Shown piece after piece: positions 3,369 to 18,954 of a stretch of 20,182 nucleotides of DNA. The position numbers were made by a program, and so were the translations under genes. The notes beneath the pieces are model-generated. The model ran no database searches. It was not told the DNA's origin and worked only from the letters and a program-made list of their open reading frames with translations. This DNA is from a virus. Each line of letters opens with the position of its first letter. Within the stretch, counting starts at the first letter, position 1. Location of the stretch: the IMG/VR virus record IMGVR_UViG_3300045885_000114, positions 1-20,182 of that record. One strand, written 5' to 3'.

Positions 3369-4276
3369 TGAGCAGCGTCGCGACTCCACAATTTGGCTGG
3401 GCAGGAGCTTTCGAGGCACAACGTGCTTGGCAACAGATCGGTGATCAGTTCCCTGTCTTTCACATGTTCGGCCCACCGAAGGCACTGCAGAGAACGTGTG
3501 CGTGGGATCAATGGCCGGCTCTAAACTTCGACATCAACAAGACGATCCTCGTCAGACAAGAGACAGGCTGCTGCGTAAGTTTTGGCGCCGCAATTGCTGT
3601 TGTCTCGGTAATGATTGACGAGATAGTTCGACTTGGTGAATCCGAACGACTTCGCATTCCATTCCCACCGTACATGTACGGGACTTCACGACTGATGCCT
3701 GAAGGTGGAAACGGAAGGCTGCGTGGTGCTGGATCACTTGGTTCATGGATGGCGAATGTGATCGTGAAATACGGCGTTCTCGCTGCTGATGAGCCGAATG
3801 TTCCAGCATACTCAGGGCGATTGGCGGATCAGTGGGGCAACAACAAGTCTGGCTTCCAGCAATTCATCAAAGGTGCATCCGACCATACGATCCGCACAGC
3901 GGCACGCATTCGAACCATCGAGCAACTGGCCGATGCAGTAAACAATCACTATTACTGCACGATCGCATCGAATCGCGGCTACAGCATGCGGCTCAAGGAT
4001 GACCGCGGAAAGAGTTGGTTTGTTGGTCGTGATACGTGGCCACACCAGATGTCAATTCTCGCCGTCGATACGCAGCCTGAGCTTTGCTTCTATCGTCGTC
4101 AGCAATGGGGTGAGATGGCCCACGGACCACAGCTTGACGGTCCAAACGGCGGTGGCTGGGTGACAGCTGACGTTTTGCGTCCAGAGCTTGAGAACGAAGA
4201 TTGCGAGTGCTATGCGTTCTCAGGGCTGAACGGATTTCCAACCGACGAACAAAAACCAGAGCACCAGTTTATTTAG
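3368..4276 (+). CDS. papain-like (C1-type) cysteine protease candidate
   Basis: The 302-aa protein has the ordered signature of papain-fold peptidases. Gln64 and Cys69 lie in QETGCCVSF, with Phe three residues after the Cys as in papain. His226 is in WPHQMSILAVD, and Asn260 with Trp264 are in DGPNGGGWV. The Gln-to-Cys spacing is one residue shorter than in papain, and Cys68/Cys69 are adjacent, so the nucleophile needs testing. No signal peptide is evident. The ATG at 3368 is preferred over TTG 3362 and GTG 3365: AGGGG sits 7 nt upstream and the ATG overlaps the preceding stop by one base. It could be a lysis enzyme, a host-directed protease, or a virion maturation factor. The capsid operon carries its own protease, which argues against maturation. 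Confidence 0.65.
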   Translation: MSSVATPQFGWAGAFEAQRAWQQIGDQFPVFHMFGPPKALQRTCAWDQWPALNFDINKTILVRQETGCCVSFGAAIAVVSVMIDEIVRLGESERLRIPFPPYMYGTSRLMPEGGNGRLRGAGSLGSWMANVIVKYGVLAADEPNVPAYSGRLADQWGNNKSGFQQFIKGASDHTIRTAARIRTIEQLADAVNNHYYCTIASNRGYSMRLKDDRGKSWFVGRDTWPHQMSILAVDTQPELCFYRRQQWGEMAHGPQLDGPNGGGWVTADVLRPELENEDCECYAFSGLNGFPTDEQKPEHQFI

Positions 4277-4278
4277 TC

Positions 4279-4662
4279 ATGGCAATCACACACCAGATCA
4301 CCGTCCAATTCACCGCGGGCAATAACCGTATCAGCAAGAGTATCAGCCAGAGCGTTGAAGCTGCATCGTGTCTGGATGTGTCAATCACTGACGGGCAGAC
4401 GAACAAGGAATGTTCGTTCATTGCTGAGTCGACAGGGCTCAAGTCTTTTTTTATCTACTCAGATCAAGACGTCACGGTGAAGACGAACAGTTCTGGAAGT
4501 CCACAAGAAACATTCACGCTCGCTGCTAACAAACCGCAGTATTGGCAGACTGGCATGGGCACGACCCCGATCGCTGGTGATGTGACGAAGGTGTTTATCA
4601 CCAATGCAAGTGGTGCAACAGCACGCGTTGAAATACAAGCAGGCTGGGATGGGACACCATGA
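4279..4662 (+). CDS. beta-rich paralogue family, copy A
   Basis: This 127-aa protein is the first of three homologues in the window; the others start at 16889 and 17290. The shared core is SDQDVTVKTNSSGSP, followed by ET, aromatic, T and NKP. A second conserved block, TNASG-TAR, lies near the C-terminus. Alternating hydrophobic and Ser/Thr residues suggest a beta-sandwich. The ATG at 4279 lies 2 nt after the protease stop with no ribosome site, so translation is probably coupled. The two other copies follow the tail tube-like gene, so a virion surface or tail-associated role is plausible. This copy sits outside the structural cluster, next to the protease. The function is unknown. Confidence 0.72.
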   Translation: MAITHQITVQFTAGNNRISKSISQSVEAASCLDVSITDGQTNKECSFIAESTGLKSFFIYSDQDVTVKTNSSGSPQETFTLAANKPQYWQTGMGTTPIAGDVTKVFITNASGATARVEIQAGWDGTP

Positions 4663-5024
4663 CATTTACCGATTGGCTTTTTGACCCGATTGTCCGCGAG
4701 TTGCGGCGTTTTTCGAAAAGGATGGGACGAATTATGGCTGATAATCTCCAACCACTGCTCGACAGATTGGACACCCAAAACACTGCGATTCGAGCTGCAG
4801 TTGATGGTATTAATGCACTCGACGCAACTCTTGAAGAAGTCCGCGACACTTTGCAGCACCAGCTGGAAACCGGTGGCGTGAACGAAGCGGCGAACGCTGC
4901 ACTGACAGCGAAGCTCGACGAAGGTGACGCTGCGTTGGCTTCGATGGCTCAAGCGTTAATACGTGCTCAGGAAGACGACCCGAACCTTCCGCATCCGCAT
5001 CCTGAACCAGAACCCCAACCGTAG
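4659..5024 (+). CDS. small coiled-coil protein with Pro/His-rich tail
   Basis: The 121-aa product opens with an amphipathic basic segment (DWLFDPIVRELRRFSKRMGRIM). A long predicted coiled coil of heptad-like Leu/Ile/Ala follows (about residues 27-105: LQPLLDRLDTQNTAI, GINALDATLEEVRDTL and so on). It ends in a Pro/His/Glu-rich tail (PHPHPEPEP). It overlaps copy A by 4 nt (ATGA) and is the last gene before a terminator. I do not recognise the family. The N-terminal helix could touch a membrane, and the coiled coil could bring partners together. A spanin or structural accessory role cannot be chosen from sequence alone. Confidence 0.6.
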   Translation: MTFTDWLFDPIVRELRRFSKRMGRIMADNLQPLLDRLDTQNTAIRAAVDGINALDATLEEVRDTLQHQLETGGVNEAANAALTAKLDEGDAALASMAQALIRAQEDDPNLPHPHPEPEPQP

Positions 5025-5045
5025 CTGGCAACTCGTGGTTGTCAG
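5025..5045 (+). other. hairpin directly after the coiled-coil gene
   Basis: CTGGCAAC (5025-5032) can pair with GTTGTCAG (5038-5045) across a 5-nt loop, matching at 7 of 8 positions. It starts on the base after the stop codon and lies 5 nt upstream of the terminator hairpin. It may protect the 3' end or help termination. Confidence 0.4.
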
Positions 5046-5050
5046 TAGGG

Positions 5051-5079
5051 CCGGCCCTTGTTCCCTTAGGGCCGGTTTT
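5051..5079 (+). terminator. Rho-independent terminator
   Basis: An 8-bp GC-only-but-one stem, CCGGCCCT (5051-5058) with AGGGCCGG (5068-5075), has a 9-nt loop and is followed at once by TTTT. It ends the accessory transcript. The next gene starts 19 nt after the T-tract, so it must be reached by read-through or by a promoter not visible here. The T-tract is short, so termination may be partial. Confidence 0.72.
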
Positions 5080-5097
5080 AACCATGGAGTCGATTTG

Positions 5098-5367
5098 ATG
5101 TTCAGTCGACGAGCACTATTGAAAGCGGCAGCGGCAATACCGGCAGTTGCCTTCCTGAGAAATCGCAATGGAAGCTCTGTCGTCAAGCACCCGTCGATGG
5201 GCTCGACGTTCGAGAGCGTTCACGCAATCACAAGCTTAGCTCCACCGATACCGGGCGACGACGCCGTGACAAAGGCGTATGTCGATGGATTGGAGCTTGA
5301 GGACGGAATGTGTTTTTTAGTGTGCGGGCAGTCTGAGTCGAGACTCAATGGAGTTTACAAGGTTTGA
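5098..5367 (+). CDS. Tat-signal protein ending in a tail-fibre-like fragment
   Basis: The 89-aa product begins with a twin-arginine signal, FSRRALLKAAAAIPAVAFL: the SRRxLLK box, then an Ala-rich hydrophobic stretch. The C-terminal half, DDAVTKAYVDGL and then MCFLVCGQSESRLNGVYKV, resembles the module found in many phage tail fibres (KAYVD, then a VLVxGQTxxxxNGVY-like segment). In fibres the module continues for many residues, but here the gene stops right after NGVYKV. It may therefore be a truncated fibre fused to an export signal, or a small exported protein. The ATG has GGAG 8 nt upstream. Upstream in-frame starts would cross the terminator. Export by Tat and the fibre link are both inferred. 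Confidence 0.58.
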   Translation: MFSRRALLKAAAAIPAVAFLRNRNGSSVVKHPSMGSTFESVHAITSLAPPIPGDDAVTKAYVDGLELEDGMCFLVCGQSESRLNGVYKV

Positions 5368-5369
5368 CG

Positions 5370-5627
5370 ATGGTCGGTTCATCAGGGCTTTCTAAGAACC
5401 CTTGGAATTTCGTCGACGACGACCTGAATCAGGTTCGCATGAGCCTGCTATCTCGTCTGGACGATGAAGACGGGGCCGTCGCACTCAAGGCCGCTCAGGA
5501 GATTCGTCTGATCGTTGAATGGATTTTCAAGCGGGACGATGCGGCCAAAGCGGCACAGGAGAAGAGAAGGCCACCACAGGACGGCGTGAAGTTAGTACCG
5601 CTCAAAGGTCTCCGATTTGCCGGATGA
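5370..5627 (+). CDS. small hypothetical protein before the terminase
   Basis: The 85-aa product, counted from ATG 5370, has an acidic helical middle (DDDLNQVRMSLLSRLDDEDGAVALKAAQEIRLI, interrupted only by the helix turn) and a basic C-terminal part (KRRPPQDGVKLVPLK). A TTG at 5364 is an alternative start that overlaps the previous stop; CAAGG upstream could serve either. It overlaps the terminase small subunit gene by 11 nt, so it belongs to the packaging transcript. I do not recognise the family. A role linked to packaging is suggested by position only. Confidence 0.55.
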   Translation: MVGSSGLSKNPWNFVDDDLNQVRMSLLSRLDDEDGAVALKAAQEIRLIVEWIFKRDDAAKAAQEKRRPPQDGVKLVPLKGLRFAG

Positions 5628-6360
5628 TGATTTTACAACAGCCCAAGTATGTGAAGCACTTGGAGTCAAGCCGGCACTCGTGAAGCAGTGGCGTGACCAA
5701 GGCATGCCCGCGGTCCGCATCAAGAATTCCTACCACTACGACCCGTTCGCTGTTGAAAAGTGGCTGATCGATCAGGGGATTGCCACACGGGTCGAAGACG
5801 AAGAGGAGTTAGACGACGATACAAGCCCGATTTTCAAATCAAGAAGCGAGATTGCCGAAGTGTTCGGCGTATCAACTCGCAGTGTGGCAGCATGGCTTGA
5901 GGACCCGTCGTTTCCCGGCCGTGTGGGCGAGCGAGCGACGTCACGCGGCGGCTACTTTCCCGCACGAGCCATTGCACGGTGGCTACGGGCGAACGGGAAG
6001 AGAGCGGTCATCCCGCCCGGCCTGGTGGACGATGAACCGCAGCCGGAAGCCACGGGAGCGTCGATTAACCCACGCGACCGCCTGGCACGTATCCGGGGCG
6101 ACAAGGCCGAACTGGAGCTGAACCGCCTGCAGGGTCAGTTGATCTCGGCCGAAGAAGTCAAAGCTTACTGCCAGCGTTGTTGGGCGTATGCCCAGTCGAC
6201 GCTGAACGAGTTGCCGCATGTGGCACTCGCTGAGCTTCCGCACGATCTCGACGAGCGTGCAAAACGAGTCGTTTTTAACGTATCGCAGCGGGTGGTCAAA
6301 AATACGCTGCTCACAATTTCCGATTTACTGACGAACGATCCTGACGCTGAGAATGGTTAG
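5617..6360 (+). CDS. terminase small subunit, Nu1-like with two HTH modules
   Basis: The small subunit binds the packaging start site on phage DNA and recruits the large subunit. The 247-aa protein has two MerR/Nu1-type winged-helix units. Unit 1, at about residues 6-53, reads TTAQVCEALGVKPALVKQW and then YHYDPFAVEKWL. Unit 2, at about 74-125, reads SRSEIAEVFGVSTRSVAAWL and then GYFPARAIARWL. A helical segment with RLARIRGDKAELELNRLQGQLI follows, the typical Nu1-family link to the oligomerisation region. The start is TTG at 5617, with AAAGG 8 nt upstream. The next in-frame ATG would remove half of the first HTH. It overlaps the upstream gene by 11 nt and the large subunit by 8 nt. Confidence 0.82.
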   Translation: MPDDDFTTAQVCEALGVKPALVKQWRDQGMPAVRIKNSYHYDPFAVEKWLIDQGIATRVEDEEELDDDTSPIFKSRSEIAEVFGVSTRSVAAWLEDPSFPGRVGERATSRGGYFPARAIARWLRANGKRAVIPPGLVDDEPQPEATGASINPRDRLARIRGDKAELELNRLQGQLISAEEVKAYCQRCWAYAQSTLNELPHVALAELPHDLDERAKRVVFNVSQRVVKNTLLTISDLLTNDPDAENG

Positions 6361-8368
6361 TTTCGCACTCAAAGAGATCAGGCACGCTTGCGGTCAAGCA
6401 TGCGTTCCGAGGGCTGAGACGGCTGTCTCGAATTGGTGTGAAAAGAATGTCCGACTTAACCCGCAGTGGGAAGCCGGGGCCGGTCGCTACGATCTTTCAG
6501 CCAACCCGTTTTGGAGACAGATCCTAGACGCCTTCAACGATCCTGAGGTGAGACGAATCACCATCATGAAAAGCACACAGGTAGGTGGAACGCTGACGCT
6601 GATTGCCGGCGTTCTAGCCCTATCGCAGATCGACCCGGCTCCGTCGATGATCGTCGGTCCTGACGAGACCTACACGACGGAAGTTCGTGATCGGACCTAC
6701 GCCAACGGGGAAGAGTCGCCGGCGATCCGGGGCAACGTGCCGCCTGAGCGGATGCGGAACAGCCGGCACATCGACCTGGCAACCGCCCGTTGCTATCTGG
6801 CCTGGTCCGGTTCGCCGCAACGGCTCCGCGGCCGTGCCTGCAAGCGAGTCTTCCGCTCAGAGATCGACGTCTATAAGAAAGACTCAGGTACTCGCGGCGG
6901 CGACCCGCTCAAGGCATCGGCCGAACGCGTCAAGCGGTTTTATAACTCACTGATCTACGACGAGTCGTCCCCAGACGGTGAGCAGTCACCGATTGCGGAA
7001 GGCTACGACGCGGGCCACCGGGCGAAGTGGATTTGCAAATGCCCGGAGTGTGGTGAGCGTCAGGAACTTCGCTTCTTTCAGTTCAAGGACGGAAGGCATG
7101 CCGACTGTGCTGGGATCGGCGGCCTGAAGGACAGCGATGATAACTACGTCACGACGGAGACCGTAGAGAAGACAGCCCATTACATCTGCATCAACGGCTG
7201 CAGGATCGATCAGGACCGCAAGGACGAGCTAGTTGGTTCTGGTATGTGGGTTGCCGAAGGTCAGTCGATCGACAAGGAAGGCAACGTGACGGGCTATCCG
7301 TCGCGTGGTCGACGGCACCTGAGCTATCACATCTGGTCGATCCATTCACCAACAATATCGTTTGCTAAGATCGCAGTGGCGTTCCTTGAAGCACGTCGCG
7401 ACGGCAAGCTTCGCGACTTCTTTCAAAACTGGTTAGGGCTGAGATATGAAACGAGAAAAAGGCTACCTGAGTGGAACATCCTGGGTAATCGACTTGCCGG
7501 CACCTACCGACGTGGTACTGTTCCAGGCCAATGTTGGTTTCTTACCGCTGGAGTCGACGTACAACTTGATGGATGCTACTACATCGTCCGCGGATGGGGC
7601 GACCAGTGCACCAGCTGGCTCGTTGAAGTTGGTTACCTTCAACGATACGAAACCGACGCGATCGACCCGAAAGAACTCTCGGAAGACGAACTTAACGAAT
7701 ACTTCCGGTCTGACCTGAAGCAAGTTTCCGATGCAGTTCTGAACCGTTACTTTCTCATTGCAGATGGCGAGCGAAACCCCTTAGGCAAGGATCGTCTGAA
7801 GCCCCTGTTGACGCTGATCGACACGGGCTATCGCACACGTGAAGTCCATGCGTTCGTGATGCAGCAAGACGAGCGTCGCGTCAAAGCCAGCCGTGGTGAG
7901 CACAAGATCAAGCCGCAAGAGCGATTCAAGGAAACGATCGTGGAGCGGCCGCAACGCGGCGGGCCTGCATACGGTTCACCACGTCGCGTATTGAATGTCT
8001 TCACGCCCCACTTCAAAGAAGCCATCTTTGAGAAGTTCACGCTGCCGGCAGGACAGCCGGGAAGCTGGAACTTCTATCACAACGTGGTTCAGACGTCGGC
8101 GGATTATCTCAGGCAGATCGGCAACGAGCGGCCGACTGAGATCACCGACAAGCAAACAGGACGTAAGCGAACGCTTTGGAAGCCACGACATGAGTCGTGG
8201 GGTAACCACTACGGTGACTGTGAAGTCTATGGCTTTGCAGCGGCTGAGTTTTTATTGACGGAGCTAGAAACGACATGGGACGCGAGCACATGGCAGAAGG
8301 CAACCAACGGCAGACGCCGTCAGAGAGAGCCGATGCCGACAGTGGCCGTAAGGGAATACCAGCTGTGA
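6353..8368 (+). CDS. terminase large subunit, lambda gpA family
   Basis: The packaging motor ATPase and nuclease. The 671 residues are close to lambda gpA (about 640). The adenine/Walker A region is ITIMKSTQVGGTLTL at about 69-83 (Lys73). The Walker B position reads RVFRSEIDVY at 165-174, keeping Glu170 but with Ser where Asp is usual. A zinc-binding pair, CPEC (230-233) with CINGC (279-283), splits the two domains. The nuclease domain begins at FLTAGVDVQLDGCYYIVRGW with Asp402. The family assignment is strong. The gene overlaps its neighbours by 8 nt upstream and 4 nt downstream, as expected in a packaging operon. Confidence 0.93.
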   Translation: MVSFALKEIRHACGQACVPRAETAVSNWCEKNVRLNPQWEAGAGRYDLSANPFWRQILDAFNDPEVRRITIMKSTQVGGTLTLIAGVLALSQIDPAPSMIVGPDETYTTEVRDRTYANGEESPAIRGNVPPERMRNSRHIDLATARCYLAWSGSPQRLRGRACKRVFRSEIDVYKKDSGTRGGDPLKASAERVKRFYNSLIYDESSPDGEQSPIAEGYDAGHRAKWICKCPECGERQELRFFQFKDGRHADCAGIGGLKDSDDNYVTTETVEKTAHYICINGCRIDQDRKDELVGSGMWVAEGQSIDKEGNVTGYPSRGRRHLSYHIWSIHSPTISFAKIAVAFLEARRDGKLRDFFQNWLGLRYETRKRLPEWNILGNRLAGTYRRGTVPGQCWFLTAGVDVQLDGCYYIVRGWGDQCTSWLVEVGYLQRYETDAIDPKELSEDELNEYFRSDLKQVSDAVLNRYFLIADGERNPLGKDRLKPLLTLIDTGYRTREVHAFVMQQDERRVKASRGEHKIKPQERFKETIVERPQRGGPAYGSPRRVLNVFTPHFKEAIFEKFTLPAGQPGSWNFYHNVVQTSADYLRQIGNERPTEITDKQTGRKRTLWKPRHESWGNHYGDCEVYGFAAAEFLLTELETTWDASTWQKATNGRRRQREPMPTVAVREYQL

Positions 8369-8691
8369 GCAAGAGCCAACCAAAGAGTTTTGACGCGGAT
8401 GATCAAGCCCCGCAGACAAACCAGGGTCCGCCGCCTGAAGGTGTCGAAGTCGAATATGGCAGCATCACCTGGGCACCGATCTGTCCCTATTGCAAACGTG
8501 CAGAGCTTCCACCAGAGAAGCGTCAGCACGTTCGTTGTCTACAGACAAGGACAGAGCAGGCGATTGCCTATTACAAGTGCCCCACTGAAGGCTGCGAGTT
8601 TTCGATTGCACTTGCACGTCCATGGCGGCCAAAGCATTGGGGTATGATTCCGCAGCAGATTAACGTTGCAGCAAGGCCAGAGATGAAATGA
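8365..8691 (+). CDS. small zinc-ribbon protein
   Basis: The 108-aa product, counted from GTG 8365, has CPYC and then KCPTEGC (CxxC and CxxxxC-like pairs) about 40 residues apart, a zinc-ribbon layout. It ends with a basic/aromatic tail (RPWRPKHWGMIPQQ). The start is chosen because GTG 8365 overlaps the terminase stop by 4 nt and has AAGGGA 9 nt upstream. An ATG at 8275 would create a 94-nt overlap. The C-terminal ATGA overlaps the next gene. It may bind DNA or a packaging partner. The function is unknown. Confidence 0.62.
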   Translation: MSKSQPKSFDADDQAPQTNQGPPPEGVEVEYGSITWAPICPYCKRAELPPEKRQHVRCLQTRTEQAIAYYKCPTEGCEFSIALARPWRPKHWGMIPQQINVAARPEMK

Positions 8692-9236
8692 AACACTTCA
8701 CAAGCATACAAACAATACGATCGGTTGCTAAAGGAAGTTGGGGAAAGCCGTTTGAAAACGAAGCTGCAGCTGAGAGTGATATCGCCAATGATCCACAAAA
8801 CATGACGGCATTCGCACTTCTATCACTCGTTAATCGAGCTGAGGAGTTTATTGCTACATTCTCTGATCACATACTAAGACAGCATTCGCGAGCAGTGAAC
8901 GAATATTATTGCGAATCGCGTGGTCGTAAGTTGGATGAAATGTTTAAGAAGCATGGCCATGCACCTTGGGAGTTGGTTGAGTATTGGGACGACGATTACC
9001 AACGACGCATTGGTAACGCATTGCTATATCAAAGGACTGGTTGCGGAAGGGAGTATGATTACATCACATCGCGACCACCGCCCGGAACGGAACTACGTCG
9101 CATATACGACCGCTGGAAGAGAAGACGCGTTAAGCCAGTAAAGCCCGTCGAAGCCAACGGGAAACCAAAGCCTGAAGCTGATCTAACTGCCAAGATGAAC
9201 AAGGCCTTTGCCGAAGCTATCCATCGCGGGCCATAA
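8688..9236 (+). CDS. AT-richer accessory gene in the head operon; weak four-helix-bundle resemblance
   Basis: The 182-aa protein is mostly helical. Residues 38-75 (MTAFALLSLVNRAEEFIATF and onward) loosely recall the suffix domain of four-helix-bundle (S23-like) proteins, but the match is by eye and weak. The C-terminal half is basic and Pro-rich (RWKRRRVKPVKPV). Codon use is visibly more AT-rich than in the terminase and portal genes on either side. The gene is followed by its own terminator, the arrangement called a moron (an extra gene inserted in a structural operon). It starts by ATGA overlap with the zinc-ribbon gene, so it still relies on upstream transcription. The function is unknown. 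Confidence 0.6.
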   Translation: MKHFTSIQTIRSVAKGSWGKPFENEAAAESDIANDPQNMTAFALLSLVNRAEEFIATFSDHILRQHSRAVNEYYCESRGRKLDEMFKKHGHAPWELVEYWDDDYQRRIGNALLYQRTGCGREYDYITSRPPPGTELRRIYDRWKRRRVKPVKPVEANGKPKPEADLTAKMNKAFAEAIHRGP

Positions 9237-9240
9237 ACCG

Positions 9241-9283
9241 TGGATCCACGGAATTTCTAAAAATCACCGTGGATCCAATTTTT
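9241..9283 (+). terminator. Rho-independent terminator after the AT-rich gene
   Basis: TGGATCCACGG (9241-9251) pairs perfectly over 11 bp with CCGTGGATCCA (9267-9277). The loop is 15 nt, and ATTTTT follows at 9278-9283. The left arm also belongs to a perfect 14-bp palindrome, CCGTGGATCCACGG (9238-9251), so the DNA itself could be a protein site. The stem starts 4 nt after the stop codon. Confidence 0.72.
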
Positions 9284-9284
9284 C

Positions 9285-9297
9285 GTCACACTGTGAC
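9285..9297. promoter_or_regulatory. 13-bp palindrome before the connector-portal-capsid genes
   Basis: GTCACA-C-TGTGAC is a perfect inverted repeat just after the terminator and 27 nt before the next ATG. An extended -10-like TGTTATCGT lies at 9310-9318, but no good -35 is correctly spaced. The palindrome differs from the one at 1577-1589 (TGTGA rather than TGTCA), so it is probably bound by another protein, such as a host regulator. A promoter must lie near here if the terminator is efficient. Confidence 0.42.
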
Positions 9298-9324
9298 ATT
9301 GCATCGGTCTGTTATCGTCGCACT

Positions 9325-9516
9325 ATGGCGACGCCTGAAGAGACGATCGATGCTGTGATCTTGGATCCATCGACTCGACCTGTCGAGTTCCGCGAGAACG
9401 AAGATCACGCACGCTTCGAATCTCTCAAGGATCTTCTCGCCGCAAAGAAGATTGCGATTGATCTTGCCGAACGGGACGAAGCCAATTGCAAGTTCCGATC
9501 GATGTTCGGTGGCTAA
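9325..9516 (+). CDS. gpW-like head-tail connector
   Basis: The 63-aa product sits between large terminase and portal, exactly where lambda gene W lies, and is near gpW length (68 aa). The segment RPVEFRENEDHARFESLKDLLAAKK recalls the gpW pattern of a short hairpin and a helix containing SLKDLI/L. In gpW this small protein sits at the head-tail junction below the portal. The ATG at 9325 is preferred: an upstream in-frame start would lie inside the previous gene and cross the terminator. There is no clear ribosome site, so leaderless translation is possible. It is followed 3 nt later by the portal gene. Confidence 0.62.
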   Translation: MATPEETIDAVILDPSTRPVEFRENEDHARFESLKDLLAAKKIAIDLAERDEANCKFRSMFGG

Positions 9517-9519
9517 CGG

Positions 9520-11118
9520 ATGCTGAGTTGGCTCGAAAAGCTGTTGAAAAAAAACGCGGTTAAGACCGCGAGCCCGGCCAGTGATATGGCTGGTGAGCAG
9601 GCATCGTCTGGGACATCGACGACCGGTGCTGCGGGTGACATAACCAGCCCGTACCCAGCCGCTCGTGTAACTCGGCTGAACTCTGCCTGGATCCCGCAGA
9701 ACTACTCGGGCAACGAAGCGATCAAGCATTCGCTTAACATGCTCACGGCTCGCATCCGTGATCAGGTCCGCGGCGATAACGTGCTGGTGAAGGCCAAGGA
9801 TGCTTTGACACGTTTGGTCATTGGCACCGGCGTCGCGGCCTACTCCGACGCCAGCTGCATGGAAGAAGACAACGAAGATCTGGTGTCGTTCGAGATCGAA
9901 TCGGATACCTGGTTCAGCCGCTGGGCAACGGACGAGTTTGATGCCGAAGGCGAATTCGGCATGTACGAACAGCAGCGGACGGCGTTCGGCGATGAGGTTG
10001 AAGCCGGCAACGTGCTGTGGCTCAAGGTCATGGACCCGAACCCAACGCGTATCGTACCGCTCTGCTACCAGCTCCTTGAGTGGGAACAGATCGACACCGA
10101 CCGCGACCGTGACGTCACTGTCAGCCGGACCAAGCGTGGCCAGATTTACAACCGGATCAGCAACGGGATTGAGTATGACGAACGGAATCGGAAGGTGGCG
10201 TTTTATGTTTTCGACGCTCACCCGTATGACAGCTCCACCGGATGGACGCCCGCTTCAACACGGATCCCAGCCGATCGAATCATCCACCAGTACACTCCGA
10301 CTAGGCCCAGTGCAAAGCTTGGCGTCACATGGTTTGCGGCCCCGCTACGGACGGCCCACGACCTTGACCGATTCGTGGCAAATGAACTCACAACTCGGGC
10401 CTTGACGGCCCTGATGGGCGTCGCAGTCTTCTCCAGCGATCGCAACGCCAAGGTCTGCTTGGACGCAGAAGACGACGAAACGGGTGTCCCCAACTTCCAG
10501 CTCGGTTACCCATACGTGGGTGCCCTGAAGGCAGAAGACCGCGTCGAGATCATCGAGAGCAAGCACAGCACGGGCGACTCCGAGACGTTCCGGAACCTGC
10601 TAATGACGTTAGCAGCGATGGGCTGCAAGATCAGCGTGTCGACGTTGCTTGGTGACCCAAGCAAATCCAACATGGCGAGCATCAAAGCGGCCCACCATGA
10701 AGATGACGAGACGGTCGCCCCGATCCAGACCTGCTTTGCCAACCGCGTGGTCATCCCCATGCGTCGCGAGTTCACGGCCCAAGCGATTGCCTTAGGCCGG
10801 CTCCGCAGCGTGCGGGCACAAGACTACACCCGCCGTCCGTGGAAATACAACCAGTGTGCCTTGATCGCCAGTAACCGTGCGGACCTGGATAAGGACGACG
10901 GTGAAGCGTCGCTGGATCGACTGCGTTCGGGCCTGGCGACCTACCAGGACGAGTGTGCTCGCCGCGGAAAGCACTGGCGTCACAATCTGCGAAAGATGCA
11001 GGTCGTGAATGAGGAAGCTAAGCGTCTGGGGATCGTGCTTGACTGGTCCAAGGGCCAAGGCAACGCACCGATGCAGGCGACGAGCGTTGCTCAGGGAGCG
11101 ATAGCCACCGATGAGTGA
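9520..11118 (+). CDS. portal protein, lambda gpB family
   Basis: The 532-aa protein is nearly the length of lambda gpB (533). It forms the dodecameric channel at the head vertex. Diagnostic segments are the N-terminal stretch NMLTARIRDQVRGDNVLVK, then ALTRLVIGTGV (the GTG motif of this family). They are followed by WATDEFDAEGEFGMYEQQRT and, past the middle, RIPADRIIHQYTPTRP. The C-terminal half has FANRVVIPMRREFTAQAIALG and a W-rich segment, as in gpB. It overlaps the next gene by 8 nt. The adenine run at 9547-9554 is in frame and harmless. Confidence 0.92.
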   Translation: MLSWLEKLLKKNAVKTASPASDMAGEQASSGTSTTGAAGDITSPYPAARVTRLNSAWIPQNYSGNEAIKHSLNMLTARIRDQVRGDNVLVKAKDALTRLVIGTGVAAYSDASCMEEDNEDLVSFEIESDTWFSRWATDEFDAEGEFGMYEQQRTAFGDEVEAGNVLWLKVMDPNPTRIVPLCYQLLEWEQIDTDRDRDVTVSRTKRGQIYNRISNGIEYDERNRKVAFYVFDAHPYDSSTGWTPASTRIPADRIIHQYTPTRPSAKLGVTWFAAPLRTAHDLDRFVANELTTRALTALMGVAVFSSDRNAKVCLDAEDDETGVPNFQLGYPYVGALKAEDRVEIIESKHSTGDSETFRNLLMTLAAMGCKISVSTLLGDPSKSNMASIKAAHHEDDETVAPIQTCFANRVVIPMRREFTAQAIALGRLRSVRAQDYTRRPWKYNQCALIASNRADLDKDDGEASLDRLRSGLATYQDECARRGKHWRHNLRKMQVVNEEAKRLGIVLDWSKGQGNAPMQATSVAQGAIATDE

Positions 11119-13588
11119 GCAGGTCAAAGACCATCGAATTCGCCACGTCGTGCGGTTCATCCTGAACGACTGCTGGCTGATCCTACCCGAGAAGCTGGAA
11201 GAGATTGTTGCCTTCCTGGAAGCACGGGCGATCGGGATCGACCTATCGGATCGGTTCGCTGACCGCGTTGCGGAATCGAATGAGCCGAAAATGCTGGACG
11301 GCGGTATTCAGCTGATCAACGTCGAGGGGACGTTGGCCCCCAAGATGAACATGATGACGCGTATGAGCGGCGGCACGAGCACTAATGTCCTAGCTCAGCA
11401 ACTACGTGCCGCCGCTTCTAACGACTCGGTGAAGTCGGTCGTCCTGCAAATCGATTCACCCGGTGGTGCGGCGAGCGGAACACCCGAGGCAGCCGCGGCG
11501 GTTCGCGAGCTGGCCCAGCGAAAACGTGTGGTCGCCTCGGCATCCAACATGATGGCCAGCGGGGCTTATTGGCTCGGCTCCGCCGCAAGCGAAGTCTTTG
11601 CCAGTGAATCAACGCAGGTCGGTTCGGTCGGCGTTTACAACGTGCTGACCAACGTCACCGAAGCCGCTGAGAAGGACGGGATTAAATACACCGTCCTGCG
11701 AGCTGGCGACCTGAAGGCGGCTGGCATTCCTTACGAGACATTGACCGCAGAACGGAAGGCGTCGCTGCAAGGACGCGTCGACGCCATCTATCAGCAGTTT
11801 GTTGGCAGTGTTGCTGAGCAACGCAAGACGACGCCACAAGCGGTACTAGAGAAATTCGGTCAAGGAAACGTCTTCCTTGCCGGAGAGGCCAGCAATCGCG
11901 GCATGATCGATGGTGTCGCGACGTTTGAAGAAGTGATAGCTCAAGAGCAGGAACGTCTTGCGTCAAAGAGCACAAAGTTTTCCATCAGAGTGACGGAGAA
12001 TCAGACTATGTCAACGAAGCTCAAAGCGGCACTGTATGCCCGCGGGCTTGTGGCGTCGCTCGATGTCGACGACGCGACTTGCTCCACGGTGCTCAACACC
12101 TACAAGGCGGCGATCGGCATGAGTGCCGATGCCACCGAAGATCAGGTGCTGGAACAGATCCTAACCAAGCAGAACAAGCCATCCACGACCACGGCACTAG
12201 CCGAAGGGTCGATCACGGCTACCAGCTCGATCCCGCTGCGTGACAAGGTGGCGGAAGAGCGGGAGCGTATCACCGACCTGCAGGCTCGCGGAAAGGCTTT
12301 GCGAGTCTCCGAAGAGTCGATTCAGGCTGCGGTCGACGGCGGGTTGACTGTCGGCGATGCCCTGACTGCCTGGACTCGTGACCTATCGAAGGCGAATCAG
12401 CCGGTGGTTGTCGCTGGTGAAGCCCAGCAGGATAAGTTCTACGCTGCCACCAGTGCCCTGCTGTGCGAACAGTACAGCGTTTGGACCGGCCCGCTGACGG
12501 AAGACGAGAGCACGGCGATTCGAAGCTACGGCGGCTCGCTGCGTAACAAGCGGTTCGTCGACTTGATCCGGATGGAGCGAGTGGCCAGCGGCCAACGAGC
12601 GATCGAAGGCGATGACCGTGCGGTCGCGACGGCCTACCTGGAGCAGGGCGGCACGATCCTGACTGCCGATGGTGGCGGGGATATGCACAGCTTGAACCGT
12701 CGCGGTGACCATGCCGACATGCTGTCTGGCCTGGTCAACAAGGCACTGGCTCGTGGTGCGATCGTCGCCGATACGAGCTTCCGTCAGTACTCGCGACGGA
12801 TTGGTGACCTGGCCGACTTCAAGCCGCGTGCTTGGATCGACCATGGGATCTTCAATCGGCTCGACGCAATCCTTGAAGACGAGCAGATGAAGCAGCTCAA
12901 AATGCAATCCGAGCTGCAAACGTGGATCAAGGCCGATCGCTATGCCAACTGCGTTGGCCTGACCGAAGAGATGGTTGTCGACGACGACCTGAACGGGTTC
13001 ACCGAAATGCTCAGCAGCATGAGCGGAGCGGCGGTGTTCACGATTCAGAATGCCGTGATAGGCTTGCTCGTTGCCAACCCATTGACCCTGGATGGCAACG
13101 CGTTCTTCAGCACGGCTCACGGCAACATCGTCACGGTTGGTGGCGTGCCGAGTGCGACCGAGCTTGACAAGATGCGGATTCTGCATCGCTTGAACAAGAG
13201 CTACGGCAGCGACGCTCCGATGGGTGCAACGCTCGACAAGGTGATTGTTCCGGCCACGCTGGAAAATGCAGCGTTGCAGACCTTGGCAACGGGTGTCGAA
13301 GTTAAGACGCCGGCAACCGACGCCACGATCAACACGTTCCGCGGCTCTGTGGGCGTGGTTGTTGACCCGTACTTGGATGCCTTCTCGACAGCGGCATGGT
13401 ACTCAATCATCCCGCTCGAGCAAGGTGCTGGCTTGATCTACGCCTTCCAGCGTGGATTCGGCGAGCGTGGTCGACGCAATGAGTGGTACGACGCTTCCCG
13501 CAAGACTCGATACGTCGGCCTGGAAACTCGATTCGGCGTGGCTCTGGCCAACTGGCGTGCAATCGTGATGAACGACGGCACTCCGTAA
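11111..13588 (+). CDS. prohead protease (S49) - scaffold - major capsid fusion
   Basis: The 825-aa polypeptide joins two functions that are separate genes in lambda. Residues about 60-290 are an SppA/ClpP-like S49 peptidase: DSPGG at 115-119 (oxyanion loop), catalytic Ser150 in MMASGAYW, and Lys202 in AGDLKAAG, followed by YQQFVGSVAEQR. Residues about 300-430 are a helical, charged scaffold-like region. From about 440 to the end is a major capsid protein of the type fused to ClpP-like proteases, with MVVDDDLNGFTEM, GNAFFSTAHGN, and a C-terminal GVALANWRAIV. Met300 (base 12008) has GGAG 9 nt upstream and could start a 526-aa scaffold-capsid product. Processing would be needed to release mature capsid. 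Confidence 0.88.
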   Translation: MSEQVKDHRIRHVVRFILNDCWLILPEKLEEIVAFLEARAIGIDLSDRFADRVAESNEPKMLDGGIQLINVEGTLAPKMNMMTRMSGGTSTNVLAQQLRAAASNDSVKSVVLQIDSPGGAASGTPEAAAAVRELAQRKRVVASASNMMASGAYWLGSAASEVFASESTQVGSVGVYNVLTNVTEAAEKDGIKYTVLRAGDLKAAGIPYETLTAERKASLQGRVDAIYQQFVGSVAEQRKTTPQAVLEKFGQGNVFLAGEASNRGMIDGVATFEEVIAQEQERLASKSTKFSIRVTENQTMSTKLKAALYARGLVASLDVDDATCSTVLNTYKAAIGMSADATEDQVLEQILTKQNKPSTTTALAEGSITATSSIPLRDKVAEERERITDLQARGKALRVSEESIQAAVDGGLTVGDALTAWTRDLSKANQPVVVAGEAQQDKFYAATSALLCEQYSVWTGPLTEDESTAIRSYGGSLRNKRFVDLIRMERVASGQRAIEGDDRAVATAYLEQGGTILTADGGGDMHSLNRRGDHADMLSGLVNKALARGAIVADTSFRQYSRRIGDLADFKPRAWIDHGIFNRLDAILEDEQMKQLKMQSELQTWIKADRYANCVGLTEEMVVDDDLNGFTEMLSSMSGAAVFTIQNAVIGLLVANPLTLDGNAFFSTAHGNIVTVGGVPSATELDKMRILHRLNKSYGSDAPMGATLDKVIVPATLENAALQTLATGVEVKTPATDATINTFRGSVGVVVDPYLDAFSTAAWYSIIPLEQGAGLIYAFQRGFGERGRRNEWYDASRKTRYVGLETRFGVALANWRAIVMNDGTP
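11995..12010 (+). promoter_or_regulatory. internal ribosome site and start for a scaffold-capsid product
   Basis: GGAG at 11995-11998 is 9 nt before an in-frame ATG at 12008, which sits where the peptidase domain ends (residue 300). An independent start would allow capsid protein to exceed protease in amount, as gene C and Nu3 are nested in lambda. No other codon in this part has as good a site nearby. This is a candidate, not proven. Confidence 0.48.
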
Positions 13589-13652
13589 CACGGATTCACA
13601 CACCTAGCTTAACACTTACACCGTAGTCAACTTTTCAGTAAGGATTTACACA

Positions 13653-14345
13653 ATGCCTGGTGGACGTGAAACCATCAAATTCGTTTATGACTTTGCCGCA
13701 ACCACTGAGTTGACCGGCATGTGGACGGATACTGCCGTCGCCACAGGTGCCGCAACGTTCGCTGAGAATTCTGGGCTTGGCGTCAAGCTTGTTGCACCGG
13801 CGGTCAATGACTCGGTTTATCTGCACTGGAACGGCAAGCTGTACTTCGATATCGATCAGCTGCTTGTCGTCGAATACCTATTCTCGTTCGAGAACGTCGC
13901 GGCGGATGCCAACACCGAAGTGATCTTCGGGATGGCATCGGCCTACAACGCCAACCCGGACTCCGTGGCCGCTTCAGCGTGGGCACTGACGAAGGCTGGC
14001 AAGTGGTATGGCGAATCGGACGACGGAACGACTGACGTCAACGACGAACCGGCCGGCATCACCTTCGCCAATGGCAAGTTGATGCGGGTTCGGATCGACT
14101 TCGCGACGGGAGTGCAGACCGTGTCGCCACCGAGCAAATCGAAGGGCGGCAAGGGTTCGATCCAGATGACAATGACCGATTCGCTCGGATGGCAACAGCA
14201 TGCGAAGTTCAGCAAGCACCTTGACATGAGTGCCTACACCGGTGGTCTGCAGCCGTACTTTGGCTTGCGTCAGCCGACCGGCACAGGTACGGCCGTAGTC
14301 TGGGTGCAGAAGATCACGATCATCAGTCGTCCGCAGGAACCGTAA
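13653..14345 (+). CDS. putative capsid decoration or virion protein
   Basis: The 230-aa product directly follows the capsid gene, the usual place for decoration proteins. It is beta-rich with a lectin-like (jelly-roll) look: YDFAATTELTGMW, VYLHWNGKLYFDIDQLLVVE, VEYLFSFENV, LMRVRIDFATGV, and a closing AVVWVQKITIISR strand. There are no Cys. A Lys/Gly-rich loop (PPSKSKGGKGS) near residue 155 may be exposed. AAGGA lies 8 nt before the ATG. The 64-nt gap before the gene (13589-13652) has no clear promoter or hairpin. The fold is a guess from pattern, and the role is inferred from position. Confidence 0.6.
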   Translation: MPGGRETIKFVYDFAATTELTGMWTDTAVATGAATFAENSGLGVKLVAPAVNDSVYLHWNGKLYFDIDQLLVVEYLFSFENVAADANTEVIFGMASAYNANPDSVAASAWALTKAGKWYGESDDGTTDVNDEPAGITFANGKLMRVRIDFATGVQTVSPPSKSKGGKGSIQMTMTDSLGWQQHAKFSKHLDMSAYTGGLQPYFGLRQPTGTGTAVVWVQKITIISRPQEP

Positions 14346-14367
14346 GCATTCGGGAAAGAGTTTAGTT

Positions 14368-14925
14368 GTGGCCAAGACGTTCAGGGAGTTGCTGACCAGC
14401 ACGAAAGAGCTGTTCCACCTGAACGTCACCTACTACGCGGAACCCATCGTCTACGTTCCATTTGGCAGCGTGCCTGACACAGTGGACGAAGTCTTGGTGT
14501 CGAGCGAAGGCGAGATCATCATCTCGCAAGACGGTGAGGAGATTAACTTCGGCCTGGCGACCGATGGGGCCTTCATCCTGGTTGCTCAGGACGGAACGAC
14601 GGTGATCACGCAAGACGAGCTAAACACGATTGGCGTGGGTGATCTGGTCATCAGGACCATCAACGTCCACATCGTCGAGGAAGAGTCACTTGAGTTTGAA
14701 GGGGAAGACACGGAAGACCGAGTCAGGCAGATCAAGGTAAAGACGCTGAAGAATTCTATCAAAGGAATCCTAAGGCCATGCATCGGGGATCAGCTGATTC
14801 GGTTGCCGCAGTACGACGAAGATCAGAACCCGTACACGTACCAAGGCGAGCATTCGCTGGAATCGATTGACAGCTGGCGGTTGACATTTGAACGGAAGCG
14901 ACGTGATGCACAAGGGTTTCGTTGA
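14368..14925 (+). CDS. putative neck/head-completion protein
   Basis: The 185-aa protein starts at GTG 14368 with GGGAAAGAG upstream. It is acidic and beta-rich. Three related strands occur in series: IIISQDGE (50-57), ILVAQDGT (70-77) and VITQDE (79-84). The C-terminal part has RQIKVKTLKNSIKGILRP and ends WRLTFERKRRDAQGFR. The place after the capsid and decoration genes and before the tail genes is where adaptor or head-completion proteins lie. I do not recognise a family. The neck role is inferred. It overlaps the next gene by 1 nt. Confidence 0.52.
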   Translation: MAKTFRELLTSTKELFHLNVTYYAEPIVYVPFGSVPDTVDEVLVSSEGEIIISQDGEEINFGLATDGAFILVAQDGTTVITQDELNTIGVGDLVIRTINVHIVEEESLEFEGEDTEDRVRQIKVKTLKNSIKGILRPCIGDQLIRLPQYDEDQNPYTYQGEHSLESIDSWRLTFERKRRDAQGFR

Positions 14926-15434
14926 TGGCCTTCGAGGGACCGATTTCCGAAGCAATGGAATTGCTAGAAGCGGCCGTCCTTGCGTCCGACACGTTTGTCA
15001 ACCAGTGCAGCTTGGACGGACTCGATCCAACGGAGCAAGTTTTTTTTCATTCGCTGCGGCCTGAGTTTGAATCCAACGTCATTAGGCCAACGCCCATTCA
15101 ACGACCGTTTGTACTGATCAAGGCAGAAGGATTTCGGCTGGTTCGCAACTTTGACAACTGCTTTGATCCGATGTCGACCCCAAGGATCCACATTCAAGAC
15201 AAATACCGCGGCGAGAACTTCAGAGAGAGCACGATTGAGTTTTCAAACTTCATCGGAAAACTGCTAACAGACATTTGGAAGTACGGACAAACGAACACGG
15301 CCCTGGCAATCAAGCAGTTCATTCAGACCACGGACCCGACAGCGACAAGACGAACGGAGCATGGAACTGATTACACGTTTTGGTTTGCGGAGTACGACGT
15401 GCAGTCAGGATATGAAGCACAGACGAGCGAATAG
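14925..15434 (+). CDS. putative neck or tail-terminator-type protein
   Basis: The 169-aa protein starts at ATG 14925, overlapping the previous stop by one base; a TTG at 14922 is less likely. It has an N-terminal helix (SEAMELLEAAVLASDTFV), a strand-rich middle (RPFVLIKAEGFRLVRNFD) and a C-terminal YTFWFAEYDVQ strand. This alpha/beta layout is seen in neck and tail-terminator proteins, but no diagnostic motif is present. A run of eight T at 15039-15046 stays in frame (Phe-Phe). The gene overlaps the next by 1 nt. The function is inferred only from position. Confidence 0.48.
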   Translation: MAFEGPISEAMELLEAAVLASDTFVNQCSLDGLDPTEQVFFHSLRPEFESNVIRPTPIQRPFVLIKAEGFRLVRNFDNCFDPMSTPRIHIQDKYRGENFRESTIEFSNFIGKLLTDIWKYGQTNTALAIKQFIQTTDPTATRRTEHGTDYTFWFAEYDVQSGYEAQTSE

Positions 15435-15967
15435 TGCCGATTTTTTTCCACGTCAATTACGAAGGGGTGAGCCTGCTGGCATTTCAGCAGGGACTGAGCA
15501 GGAGATCCCGAGACGAAGCGATCAAGTACGCCATGTTTCGCGTTGCGATGTTTTGGCATCGGTTCATCCTGCCGAAGCACTTTGAACGTGGGGCGAAGCG
15601 GAGATACAAGCATCAGCAAAGAAAACGAAAGTACTCCCGGATCAAGGAAGACTTCGCCCGCGGCATCCCGTATAAGGGCGAACTTCCAACGGTGGTCAAG
15701 GGCGGTACGGTCGATATTGCGTTTGGCGGATCAACAGAAGGCAAAGCAAGGGCATCCAAGGCGATCAAGGTCACCACAAGCGGATTCAAGATACGAATGC
15801 GGGTGCCGCGTTATATCGTCATGCGGCGACGTGGTAATTACCCCAACATGAAAGCGGAGTTGTCCAGGATCACAAGAGAGGAAGCCAGAGCACTCACCAA
15901 GATATTTGCCAGAGACTACATCCGATACATCAGGTCCCAAAGAATTTCCCAACAGATAGCGGCCTAA
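15434..15967 (+). CDS. basic tail-completion protein, gpZ/HK97-gp10-like
   Basis: The 177-aa protein starts at GTG 15434 within TAGTG, coupled to the gene before. It is strongly basic (RGAKRRYKHQQRKRKYSRIK near residues 52-71; many Arg/Lys throughout). Its ends are helical, around a beta segment (KAIKVTTSGFKIRMRVPRYI). Such basic proteins between neck and tail tube, like lambda gpZ and HK97 gp10, help join tail to head. The call rests on charge, size and order, with no family motif seen. The C-terminal helix EEARALTKIFARDYIRYIRS could contact DNA or the portal. Confidence 0.55.
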   Translation: MPIFFHVNYEGVSLLAFQQGLSRRSRDEAIKYAMFRVAMFWHRFILPKHFERGAKRRYKHQQRKRKYSRIKEDFARGIPYKGELPTVVKGGTVDIAFGGSTEGKARASKAIKVTTSGFKIRMRVPRYIVMRRRGNYPNMKAELSRITREEARALTKIFARDYIRYIRSQRISQQIAA

Positions 15968-15968
15968 C

Positions 15969-16880
15969 ATGGCTCTAGATAACATCCACTATCCGCACGC
16001 GATCCGGTTGCCAAATCCTGAGATTGTGCACTTGACCGCTGTCAACCCGGATCGTGGTTACAACGTGGTCACCGAATCGGCAGCCGGCGAAGCGGTGCCG
16101 TGCTTTGTCGGTGTCGGGTCGATCGCTCCGGTGCTGACCTTCACCAGCCGGCAGCTGAAGTCGATCCTGGATGTGCTGACGGTCCAGAGCCTGTTGCGTG
16201 ATCTCTCGGGTGACACGGTCGATCTCTGGTATCGAGCCGGCCGGCCGATGGACATCCGCGAAGAGAACGGCGTCGCCAAGCACATTGTCGCCCGCTTGGC
16301 TACCAGTGCGATGCTTTACTGGAATCAGATTCGGGTTACCCAAGGCTCGATTGCTGAGATCGATTGCAGCATGCCGACCGCTAAGCGGACGATTGCTGAC
16401 CCGATGGTGTGGCTCGGCAGTCAGACGCTGCCCACAGTCTCAGGCTGCCAGCGGATCTACGGCATGGGCCCTGTGCGGCTCAACGGGACGCTGCTCACTG
16501 GCGTCACGGGATGGACGATGACGAGCAACGTGCAGCTGGAGCAGATTTCAGCGGACGGCGACAAGTTCCTAACCTATCTGGGCGTCAACAACTTCCACCC
16601 GCAAGTACAGCTGAACTCGGCAAACTTGAACGAGATCGTAGCGTCGAGCAATGGCGGCGACGCGTTCAATACGCTCGATCTCTATCTGCAGCGAATGGTT
16701 TCAACCGATGTGTTTGACAGCCCGACTGCAACCACCCACATACGAGTCACGTTGTTCGGCGGGTTGAGAACAGTTCCTGGTGCGACAGGAAGCCCGGCAA
16801 CGGTCTCCCCCATGTTTTACTCAGTCAAGTCGTCAAGCTTCCCGACGCACTCGTTCAATACGGCGATCAATATCAGTTAG
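15969..16880 (+). CDS. putative major tail tube protein
   Basis: The 303-aa product follows the tail-completion gene, where lambda has gene V after Z and U. It is beta-rich with few charged patches. Notable segments are TFTSRQLKSILDVLTVQ, IRVTQGSIAEIDCSM, GPVRLNGTLLTGVTGWTMT, and DLYLQRMVSTDVF. The repeated tube-like strand-loop pattern and the position support a tube subunit. No tail-tube signature was recognised with certainty. The start lies 1 nt after the previous stop with no clear ribosome site, so translation is likely coupled. Confidence 0.58.
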   Translation: MALDNIHYPHAIRLPNPEIVHLTAVNPDRGYNVVTESAAGEAVPCFVGVGSIAPVLTFTSRQLKSILDVLTVQSLLRDLSGDTVDLWYRAGRPMDIREENGVAKHIVARLATSAMLYWNQIRVTQGSIAEIDCSMPTAKRTIADPMVWLGSQTLPTVSGCQRIYGMGPVRLNGTLLTGVTGWTMTSNVQLEQISADGDKFLTYLGVNNFHPQVQLNSANLNEIVASSNGGDAFNTLDLYLQRMVSTDVFDSPTATTHIRVTLFGGLRTVPGATGSPATVSPMFYSVKSSSFPTHSFNTAINIS

Positions 16881-16888
16881 GTGGTCCT

Positions 16889-17278
16889 ATGTCGATGACG
16901 CAATCGGTATCGATCGAAGCCCAGATGGACGGCGTGACCCGGATCTCTGCGGCGTTCACTGAAACGCTGGGCAGTCTGATGGATCTCGACGAGACGGTGG
17001 CGACCGGGCAGACCGACAAGGAACTGGTGTGCCGCGTTGAGACGAGCGGACTACGTATCTTCGCGATCAACTCAGACCAAGACGTCACAGTCAAAACAAA
17101 TTCGTCAGGAAGTCCAAACGAAACCTGGACTCTCAAGAGAAACAAACCGCTGGTCTGGGCCAACAACATGGGACTTGGATTTCCGTTGCTGGCTGATCTC
17201 ACCAGTATCTTCGTGACCAATGCCAGCGGGAGCACGGCACGCATTCAAGTTATGACCGGACGGACACCCACCACGTAA
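16889..17278 (+). CDS. beta-rich paralogue family, copy B
   Basis: The 129-aa homologue of copies A and C. It has the family core SDQDVTVKTNSSGSP identical to copy A, then ETWTL and NKPLVW, and the C-terminal FVTNASGSTARIQ block. The first half is more divergent. AGGTGG lies 4 nt before ATG 16889; a second ATG at 16895 has more usual spacing, so the start is uncertain by two codons. It sits between the tube-like gene and copy C, suggesting a tail-associated structural role. The function is unknown. Confidence 0.74.
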   Translation: MSMTQSVSIEAQMDGVTRISAAFTETLGSLMDLDETVATGQTDKELVCRVETSGLRIFAINSDQDVTVKTNSSGSPNETWTLKRNKPLVWANNMGLGFPLLADLTSIFVTNASGSTARIQVMTGRTPTT

Positions 17279-17289
17279 GCGAATAAGCC

Positions 17290-17682
17290 ATGGCAGTCAC
17301 TTCAAGTATCAATTACCGAATCAGCGACGGCGTCACGTCGATCGTCGTTACAGCCTCTGAGTCTGTGGGGGCGACGGTAACGGTCGATGAATCGGTTGCC
17401 ACGGGCGAAACCAATAAGCAGGTAACGGCTTCGGTCCCAAGCAGCGGACTCAAGACGTTCACCATCACTAGCGACCAGGACGTGACCATTAAGACCAACT
17501 CGTCAGGCAGCCCCCAAGAGACGTTCACGATCAAGGCCAACAAGCCATTGGCGTGGATTACTGGTGGTGGTGGCGGTCAGGCAAGTCCCATTGCAGGGCC
17601 AGTGACGGCTCTGTTTGTTACCAACTCGTCAGGCTCGGCTGCGAGGATCCAGCTGCTTGCTGGTTATGATCCGACACCGTAA
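17290..17682 (+). CDS. beta-rich paralogue family, copy C
   Basis: The 130-aa homologue, tandem to copy B with an 11-nt gap. Its core reads SDQDVTIKTNSSGSP and then QETFTIKANKPLAW, closer to copy A in these residues than copy B is. It has a Gly-rich insert (GGGGGQASP) and the closing FVTNSSGSAARIQ block. The N-terminal half has repeated Val/Thr strands (TASESVGATVTVDESVATGE). It is probably an Ig-like or beta-sandwich protein. The DNA of the three copies has diverged while the core stays fixed, so they are under selection. Confidence 0.74.
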   Translation: MAVTSSINYRISDGVTSIVVTASESVGATVTVDESVATGETNKQVTASVPSSGLKTFTITSDQDVTIKTNSSGSPQETFTIKANKPLAWITGGGGGQASPIAGPVTALFVTNSSGSAARIQLLAGYDPTP

Positions 17683-17699: not shown

Positions 17700-17981
17700 A
17701 TGACCATTGATCACATTTTACTAACAGCAAGGAACGTCCTTGCACAAGCAGCGAACATCGACCGCAACACAGCCAACGCCTACATCCAGCGTGCCGATAG
17801 GAAACTGCTCGAGAAGATTGCCGCGGCGGCCCCTGAAGAAGCGGCCCGGCTTGCCCTGAAGATCATGCCACCCAACGACCTGGTGGAGGCTCCACCTGAG
17901 GAAGCCCATCCGGTCAAGAAAACGAACAAGCGAGAGGCCAGATTGGAGACGGAAGACTCGCCGGCCTCGAACATGGAGTAA
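17700..17981 (+). CDS. small helical protein before the tail terminator
   Basis: The 93-aa product begins at ATG 17700, behind a purine-rich site (GAGAAAGG). It is helical and Ala/Glu-rich (LLEKIAAAAPEEAARLALKI), then a charged, disordered tail (PVKKTNKREARLETED). It could be a tail assembly factor, since it lies two genes before the tape measure, but nothing shows this. A terminator follows within about 80 nt, so it is the last gene of the tube transcript. Confidence 0.55.
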   Translation: MTIDHILLTARNVLAQAANIDRNTANAYIQRADRKLLEKIAAAAPEEAARLALKIMPPNDLVEAPPEEAHPVKKTNKREARLETEDSPASNME

Positions 17982-18925: not shown

Positions 18926-18954
18926 AGATCCTGAGAGTAGTTAGCCAGCTATGA
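18828..18954 (+). other. candidate -1 ribosomal frameshift site and extension
   Basis: Nine A at 18828-18836 contain A-AAA-AAA in the correct phase for a -1 slip. The -1 frame is closed by a TGA at 18820-18822 just upstream. It is open from 18823 to a TGA at 18952-18954 that overlaps the tape-measure ATG (18951). A shift would give a 290-aa product instead of 280 aa, with the last 39 residues different. The extension is short and Arg-rich at first, and a 44-codon open stretch could arise by chance. Confidence 0.45.

Follow-up and report, generated by a model that had tools for sequence, protein, structure and literature searches.

Three diverged copies of an unnamed beta-rich protein family in an uncultivated phage, with a candidate role in tail-tube decoration

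Three paralogous genes in one phage record

The window analyzed here is the complete IMG/VR record IMGVR_UViG_3300045885_000114, a stretch of 20,182 bases from an uncultivated phage whose host is probably a planctomycete. It contains three genes for small beta-rich proteins, designated copies A, B, and C, which belong to one widespread family that has no name in the libraries searched. We propose that the family is an accessory virion protein, which in this phage may decorate the tail tube.

The three open reading frames (ORFs) are found on the plus strand at the starts given by an earlier sequence-only reading of the window (Table 1). Copy A starts 2 bases past the stop codon of the upstream gene. 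The proteins are 45–53% identical in pairwise full-length alignment, far beyond chance. A search of the record with copy B retrieved copy C at an E-value of 1.6e-37 and copy A at 4.7e-32, and no further copy. They are thus true paralogs, as had been proposed. A family profile matches all three over their full length with E ≤ 1.2e-44, and they do not fall into different families. Two further IMG/VR records overlap this one at 99.99–100% identity and reach 3.7 kb farther upstream and about 7.5 kb farther downstream; the same three copies are present there, and no fourth copy was found in either.

The block SDQDVT[V/I]KTNSSGSP, with isoleucine in copy C, and an NKP motif can be read in all three translations, in agreement with the earlier description. 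A last block described as TNASG-TAR is present in copies A (TNASGATAR) and B (TNASGSTAR), but reads TNSSGSAAR in copy C. The C-terminal part of the copies is 57–66% identical, whereas the N-terminal part is 28–40% identical. A 15-residue core is identical or nearly so across the copies, bearing out the view that a fixed core is retained in otherwise diverged genes.

Copies B and C sit inside the structural module, directly after a gene whose product is, by its modeled fold, a T5-type two-domain tail-tube protein. The model has a predicted local distance difference test score (pLDDT) of 86.4 and a predicted template modeling score (pTM) of 0.82. It gave nine PDB matches with E ≤ 0.001, all to siphophage tail-tube or tail-tip proteins (T5, DT57C tail tube and tail tip, SH-Ab15497, and P74-26 tube), with E-values of 8.7e-8 to 7.4e-6 and template modeling (TM) scores of 0.50–0.59. 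The fold confirms the tail-tube gene that had been placed next to B and C; the protein has no sequence-family match and no match among the INPHARED phages. The two tube domains fill all 303 residues, leaving no room for an extra immunoglobulin-like (Ig-like) domain of the kind carried by T5 pb6 (PMC11313276). Copies B and C come five to six genes after the capsid gene and do not adjoin the protease or capsid genes.

Copy A lies outside the head-tail cluster, as claimed, between a DnaB-type helicase region and the terminase genes. It is surrounded by genes for small proteins, some with secretion-signal-like starts. The gene upstream of it had been taken for a protease candidate, an assignment that found no support in Pfam or PHROGs.

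Table 1. Coordinates of the three copies and of other features in the window
Feature	Position	Strand	Remarks
304-aa gene upstream of copy A, earlier protease candidate	3362..4276	+	No family match
Copy A	4279..4662	+	127 aa; remote paralog; family profile E 1.3e-47
Terminase large subunit (GpA type)	6353..8368	+	Family match
Lambda-family portal protein	9520..11118	+	PF05136 E 5.8e-54
S49 head-maturation protease fused to major capsid protein	11111..13588	+	PHROG 53 E 6.6e-79; PF25209 E 1.6e-20
Family c9, putative neck or connector type	15434..15967	+	Assigned by position; no family match
Predicted tail-tube protein, two-domain (T5 pb6-like) type	15969..16880	+	303 aa; fold of model; directly upstream of B and C
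Copy B	16889..17278	+	129 aa; first of tandem pair; family profile E 1.2e-44
Copy C	17290..17682	+	130 aa; second of tandem pair; family profile E 6.7e-45
93-aa gene	17700..17981		Follows copy C
Family c8, position suggests tail assembly	18083..18925	+	Downstream of family gene in this module type; no family match
Probable tape-measure protein (family c13)	18951..20182	+	Leaves record end; 517 aa in L006; position, length, and coiled-coil character

Predicted fold

An AlphaFold2 model of copy C, built with 34 relatives, is all-beta with ten strands (pLDDT 87.7, pTM 0.73), consistent with the beta-rich protein predicted earlier. Copies A and B are very unlikely to adopt another fold, judging from the full-length identity of the copies, and the one model is taken to account for the family.

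The borderline PDB list for the model consists mainly of jelly-roll or double-stranded beta-helix proteins (endospore appendage (Ena) subunits and cupins), carbohydrate-binding modules (CBMs), and the KHP40 cement protein, all with query-normalized TM scores below 0.5. Since no PDB match is firm, the predicted fold is called jelly-roll-like only, and no fold family is claimed. Among predicted viral proteins in BFVD, the best match is A0A6J5MKP0, an uncharacterized Caudovirales protein that aligns over the full length with a TM score of 0.86–0.89 and 28% identity and is evidently a family member. Another uncharacterized phage protein, A0A1B1ITA0, has a TM score of 0.64–0.72 to the model. Further BFVD matches are uncharacterized proteins of the jumbo phages phiRSL1, Motura, and BcepSaruman, with TM scores of about 0.5–0.6 and only about 10% identity.

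Extent of the family

Starting from the 3 copies, iterated pattern and tblastn searches of IMG/VR brought the family to about 70 distinct sequences, which lie on more than 60 contigs. The family is defined by profile A4, with the core T-N-x(4)-P-x-[DE]-T ... DVT-x(4)-TN. Across 35 members, N70, T106, and T111 (copy C numbering) are near-invariant, followed by T66, T69, P75, T78, W89, V105, and N112, and the first 52 residues are far more variable than the remainder. GTDB genomes gave five matches: one is labeled Deltaproteobacteria, and the other four carry a Planctomycetota or Phycisphaerales label. When 392 Planctomycetota genomes were searched with a profile, 4 of them, including the seed genome, contained the family; in three of the four the gene lies on the first contig, 7.4–7.8 Mb long. 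Among 284 genomes of the phylum of the Deltaproteobacteria metagenome-assembled genome, the seed genome alone matched.

The family is real and widespread, and the earlier statement that it belongs to no named family holds. Neither single members nor profiles of 3 and 35 members had a match in Pfam, PHROGs, or PDB sequences that was consistent across the family; the few low E-values link single members to scattered unrelated families and are mostly sub-threshold. Pfam showed no match to a CBM family among 35 members, none to the Ena (DUF3992) appendage family, and nothing above cut-off for Ig domains. A tblastn search of the INPHARED phages with five divergent members yielded no credible match, and a literature search on planctomycete phages with related proteins returned no paper describing this family. 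Very few phages of Planctomycetota appear to have been described. Annotation pipelines leave the family blank: it is absent from Pfam, PHROGs, PDB, and more than 50,000 phage records, yet common in uncultivated viruses. Its profile can serve as a marker for this kind of virion module.

One match lies in a different setting. A planctomycete ABC-2-permease-like membrane protein (L055:2262-3749) carries an insert, residues 84–196, that scores 42.7 bits against the profile of the phage family, of which its own sequence was no part. The related permeases L126–L129 do not match the family profile.

Gene order in relatives

Gene order was surveyed at 65 distinct loci that were found via the family, so that the co-occurrence counts are biased. 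Most of these loci lie within phage structural modules. Near neighbors are co-directional with the family gene in 351 of 366 cases, a count that leans high because a simple script favoring the strand of the family gene made the gene calls. Upstream of the family gene, 44 loci have portal or capsid families and only one has a tape-measure family; 28 have tape-measure families downstream. In 23 loci an identified tail-tube family is at most three genes away, and 11 others have a probable one at such a distance. Three Planctomycetota chromosomes (L115, L116, and L117) repeat the arrangement of this record, in which connector, tube, family gene, c8, and tape-measure follow in that order. A query with the tail-tube protein alone gave two new contigs, L120 and L121; in L120, which all family searches had missed, a family gene lies directly downstream of the tube gene.

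The modules of L115–L117 lie inside chromosomes of 7.4–7.8 Mb and may be prophages or domesticated elements. Each contains a probable secreted thioredoxin-like gene between the capsid and neck genes (PF13098, E 0.0019 in L117). The presence of such modules in Planctomycetota chromosomes offers a practical route to testing function.

Of 43 larger records, 41 have a single copy, and three copies are unusual for the family. Two-copy records elsewhere are limited to the tandem pair L098/L100 and the contig with L108 and L110. The latter (IMGVR_UViG_3300036781_000806) is one 66-kb contig on which two related structural modules face opposite ways, each including its own family gene.

A small gene of 78–133 aa, c4, is the immediate upstream neighbor of the family gene in 13 of 13 loci where it was recognized, at differing module positions (for example L056:7760-8017, L037:7588-7965, and L092:7495-7893). 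The two genes possibly form a cassette.

Origin of the three copies

In a maximum-likelihood tree, copies A, B, and C form one clade with 100/98 support, and the nearest sequences are L013 and L015 (99/91). The branching order within the clade has no supported resolution. Between copies, dN is about 0.55–0.57 and dS is at or near saturation. In the 15-residue core, 8–11 of the 15 codons differ synonymously, with the amino acids kept. The copies are old duplications within the lineage of this virus, because they form a single well-supported clade, and their core is under purifying selection. Separate horizontal acquisition of the three copies is ruled out by the clade. Recent gene conversion of the core is also ruled out, because most core codons differ synonymously. 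The triplication offers a natural experiment for telling fixed from free parts of the domain.

A candidate decoration protein of the tail tube

The small, single-domain beta protein, mostly single-copy, co-directional, and flexible in position within structural modules, points to an accessory virion protein. In this virus, a tube gene without a decoration domain is followed by two family genes, which makes the tail tube the likeliest site. We therefore lean toward a stand-alone, decoration-type virion protein that would, in this virus, decorate the tail tube. The sequence-only reading had offered tail decoration, receptor contact, or an anti-host factor; the first is the best supported of the three, through the structural-module setting and the tube gene beside B and C, from which we infer tube attachment.

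Each protein, at about 130 residues, would fold as one jelly-roll-like beta domain. Copies B and C would be made together with the tail-tube protein and would most likely lie on the outside of the tube. Because the tube protein here consists of two tube domains only, B and C may supply in trans the function that T5 pb6, lambda gpV, and SPP1 obtain from a fused Ig-like or adhesin domain. Phages normally carry one such gene, which this lineage appears to have duplicated twice, long ago. Strands and loops of the C-terminal part (T-N-x(4)-P-x-[DE]-T and DVT...TN) would have been kept while the N-terminal half diverged. The copies probably share fold and assembly mode and may differ in what they touch.

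Several observations weigh against a tube decoration. In addition to the bias of the locus survey, adjacency to the tube fails for about half of the loci, and the L121 contig ends without a family gene beside the tube. In L069 and L015 the family gene adjoins the portal gene, in L103 and L104 it comes shortly after the capsid gene region, and in L013 it is near no identified tail, portal, capsid, or connector gene. Copy A itself adjoins no tail-tube gene and lies away from any identified tail gene. In the PDB fold search with the model of C, nothing passes E 0.001 (best E 1.1e-3, TM 0.40–0.48).

Some of these positions suit a cement-like decoration of the head or neck, in which case closeness to the tube would reflect the mere neighborhood of neck, tube, and tape-measure genes. 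The portal-side loci, the two that follow soon after the capsid-protease gene, and three with the family gene beside connector or neck genes (L039, L092, and L093) are consistent with this explanation. So is the trimeric cement protein of Helicobacter phage KHP40 (7dou), like the family a single small beta-rich protein, which has weak fold similarity to the model (TM about 0.41). Genes for head decoration or cement proteins usually adjoin the capsid gene. Unlike them, most family genes lie toward the tail genes of the module, and only a minority of relatives (L069, L103, and L104) have theirs near head genes. In the module type of this record and its three chromosomal relatives, moreover, the gene comes directly after the tube and some five to seven genes from the capsid, and we consider a head or neck role unlikely. 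The setting of copy A, among genes for probably secreted proteins and outside the assembly cluster, could instead mean that this copy, or even the family as a whole, contacts receptors or binds the host surface, with duplication providing new specificities. Its closest outside relatives are in L015, where a collagen-like, fibre-like gene is the neighbor, and in L013, where the two following genes have signal-peptide-like starts; the weak Foldseek matches of the model include CBM86, CBM29, and CBM36, and divergence is faster in the N-terminal than in the C-terminal half. However, the searches returned no receptor, fibre, or CBM family match, and the same virus has a better tail-tip candidate in a beta-propeller protein downstream of the tape-measure gene. 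Receptor contact seems distinctly unlikely.

The location of copy A, together with the absence of an evident signal peptide at the start of the copies, would also fit an intracellular factor that is missing from the finished particle, whether anti-host, regulatory, or an assembly helper. Nearly all relatives, however, are single co-directional genes within a structural module, a setting that speaks against an anti-host factor, for which no positive evidence was found. The near-invariant Thr, Asn, Pro, and Trp residues are of a strand or turn type and include no conserved catalytic-type set. We regard such a factor as improbable. A further reading, which we also hold to be improbable, is that the family is a self-standing, exchangeable tail-surface protein with which mainly planctomycete phages meet an unusual cell surface. 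The copies would then form a mixed tail coat of three diverged subunits, A being set apart as a variant with its own expression or use, and the permease insert in L055 would be a cellular use of the same domain.

Comparison with known systems

Accessory beta domains on siphophage particles are already well known; the unnamed family is new. Like the fused domains of T5 pb6, lambda gpV, SPP1 gp17.1*, and the major tail proteins of 936 phages, its members are small, all-beta by prediction, tube-associated by gene position, and fast evolving. They are likewise apparently dispensable in position, and are encoded here beside a predicted T5-type tube protein. Unlike the fused Ig-like or adhesin domains, the family is encoded by a separate gene rather than a C-terminal extension, occupies several module positions, and has no sequence or firm fold match to Ig.

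CBMs decorate the necks and tails of 936 lactococcal phages (BppA-like, TpeX, and the neck passage structure; PMC6669499). The family resembles these beta-sandwich accessory domains in its weak CBM29, CBM36, and CBM86 fold matches, and differs from them in having no CBM family match and a single-domain gene. The best PDB match by E-value is to the jelly-roll subunits of Bacillus endospore appendages (1.1e-3), with TM scores of 0.40–0.48 that lie below the usual threshold of 0.5 and without sequence similarity; the likeness is not evidence of kinship.

Other features of the record

The tape-measure candidate c13 has no PHROGs tape-measure match. Past it, L006, which represents the same virus, continues with tail genes. 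These include, in the distal tail region, a 717-aa Sortilin/Vps10-BNR beta-propeller (L006:14136-16289; PF15902, E 2.1e-21), which by its family match is a candidate receptor or glycan-contact protein. The S49 protease and the major capsid protein are fused in a single 825-aa ORF.

Two small proteins, encoded at 1777-2244 in the window and at L013:15561-15854, have signal-peptide-like starts, a QCxxGxC-like motif at the N terminus, and a GGQC/NGQC cysteine motif at the C terminus. Just upstream of the terminase genes, a small ORF at 5098-5367 begins with a twin-arginine-like stretch (PF10518, E 0.015, below cut-off) and continues with the fibre-like sequence DAVTKAYVDGL.

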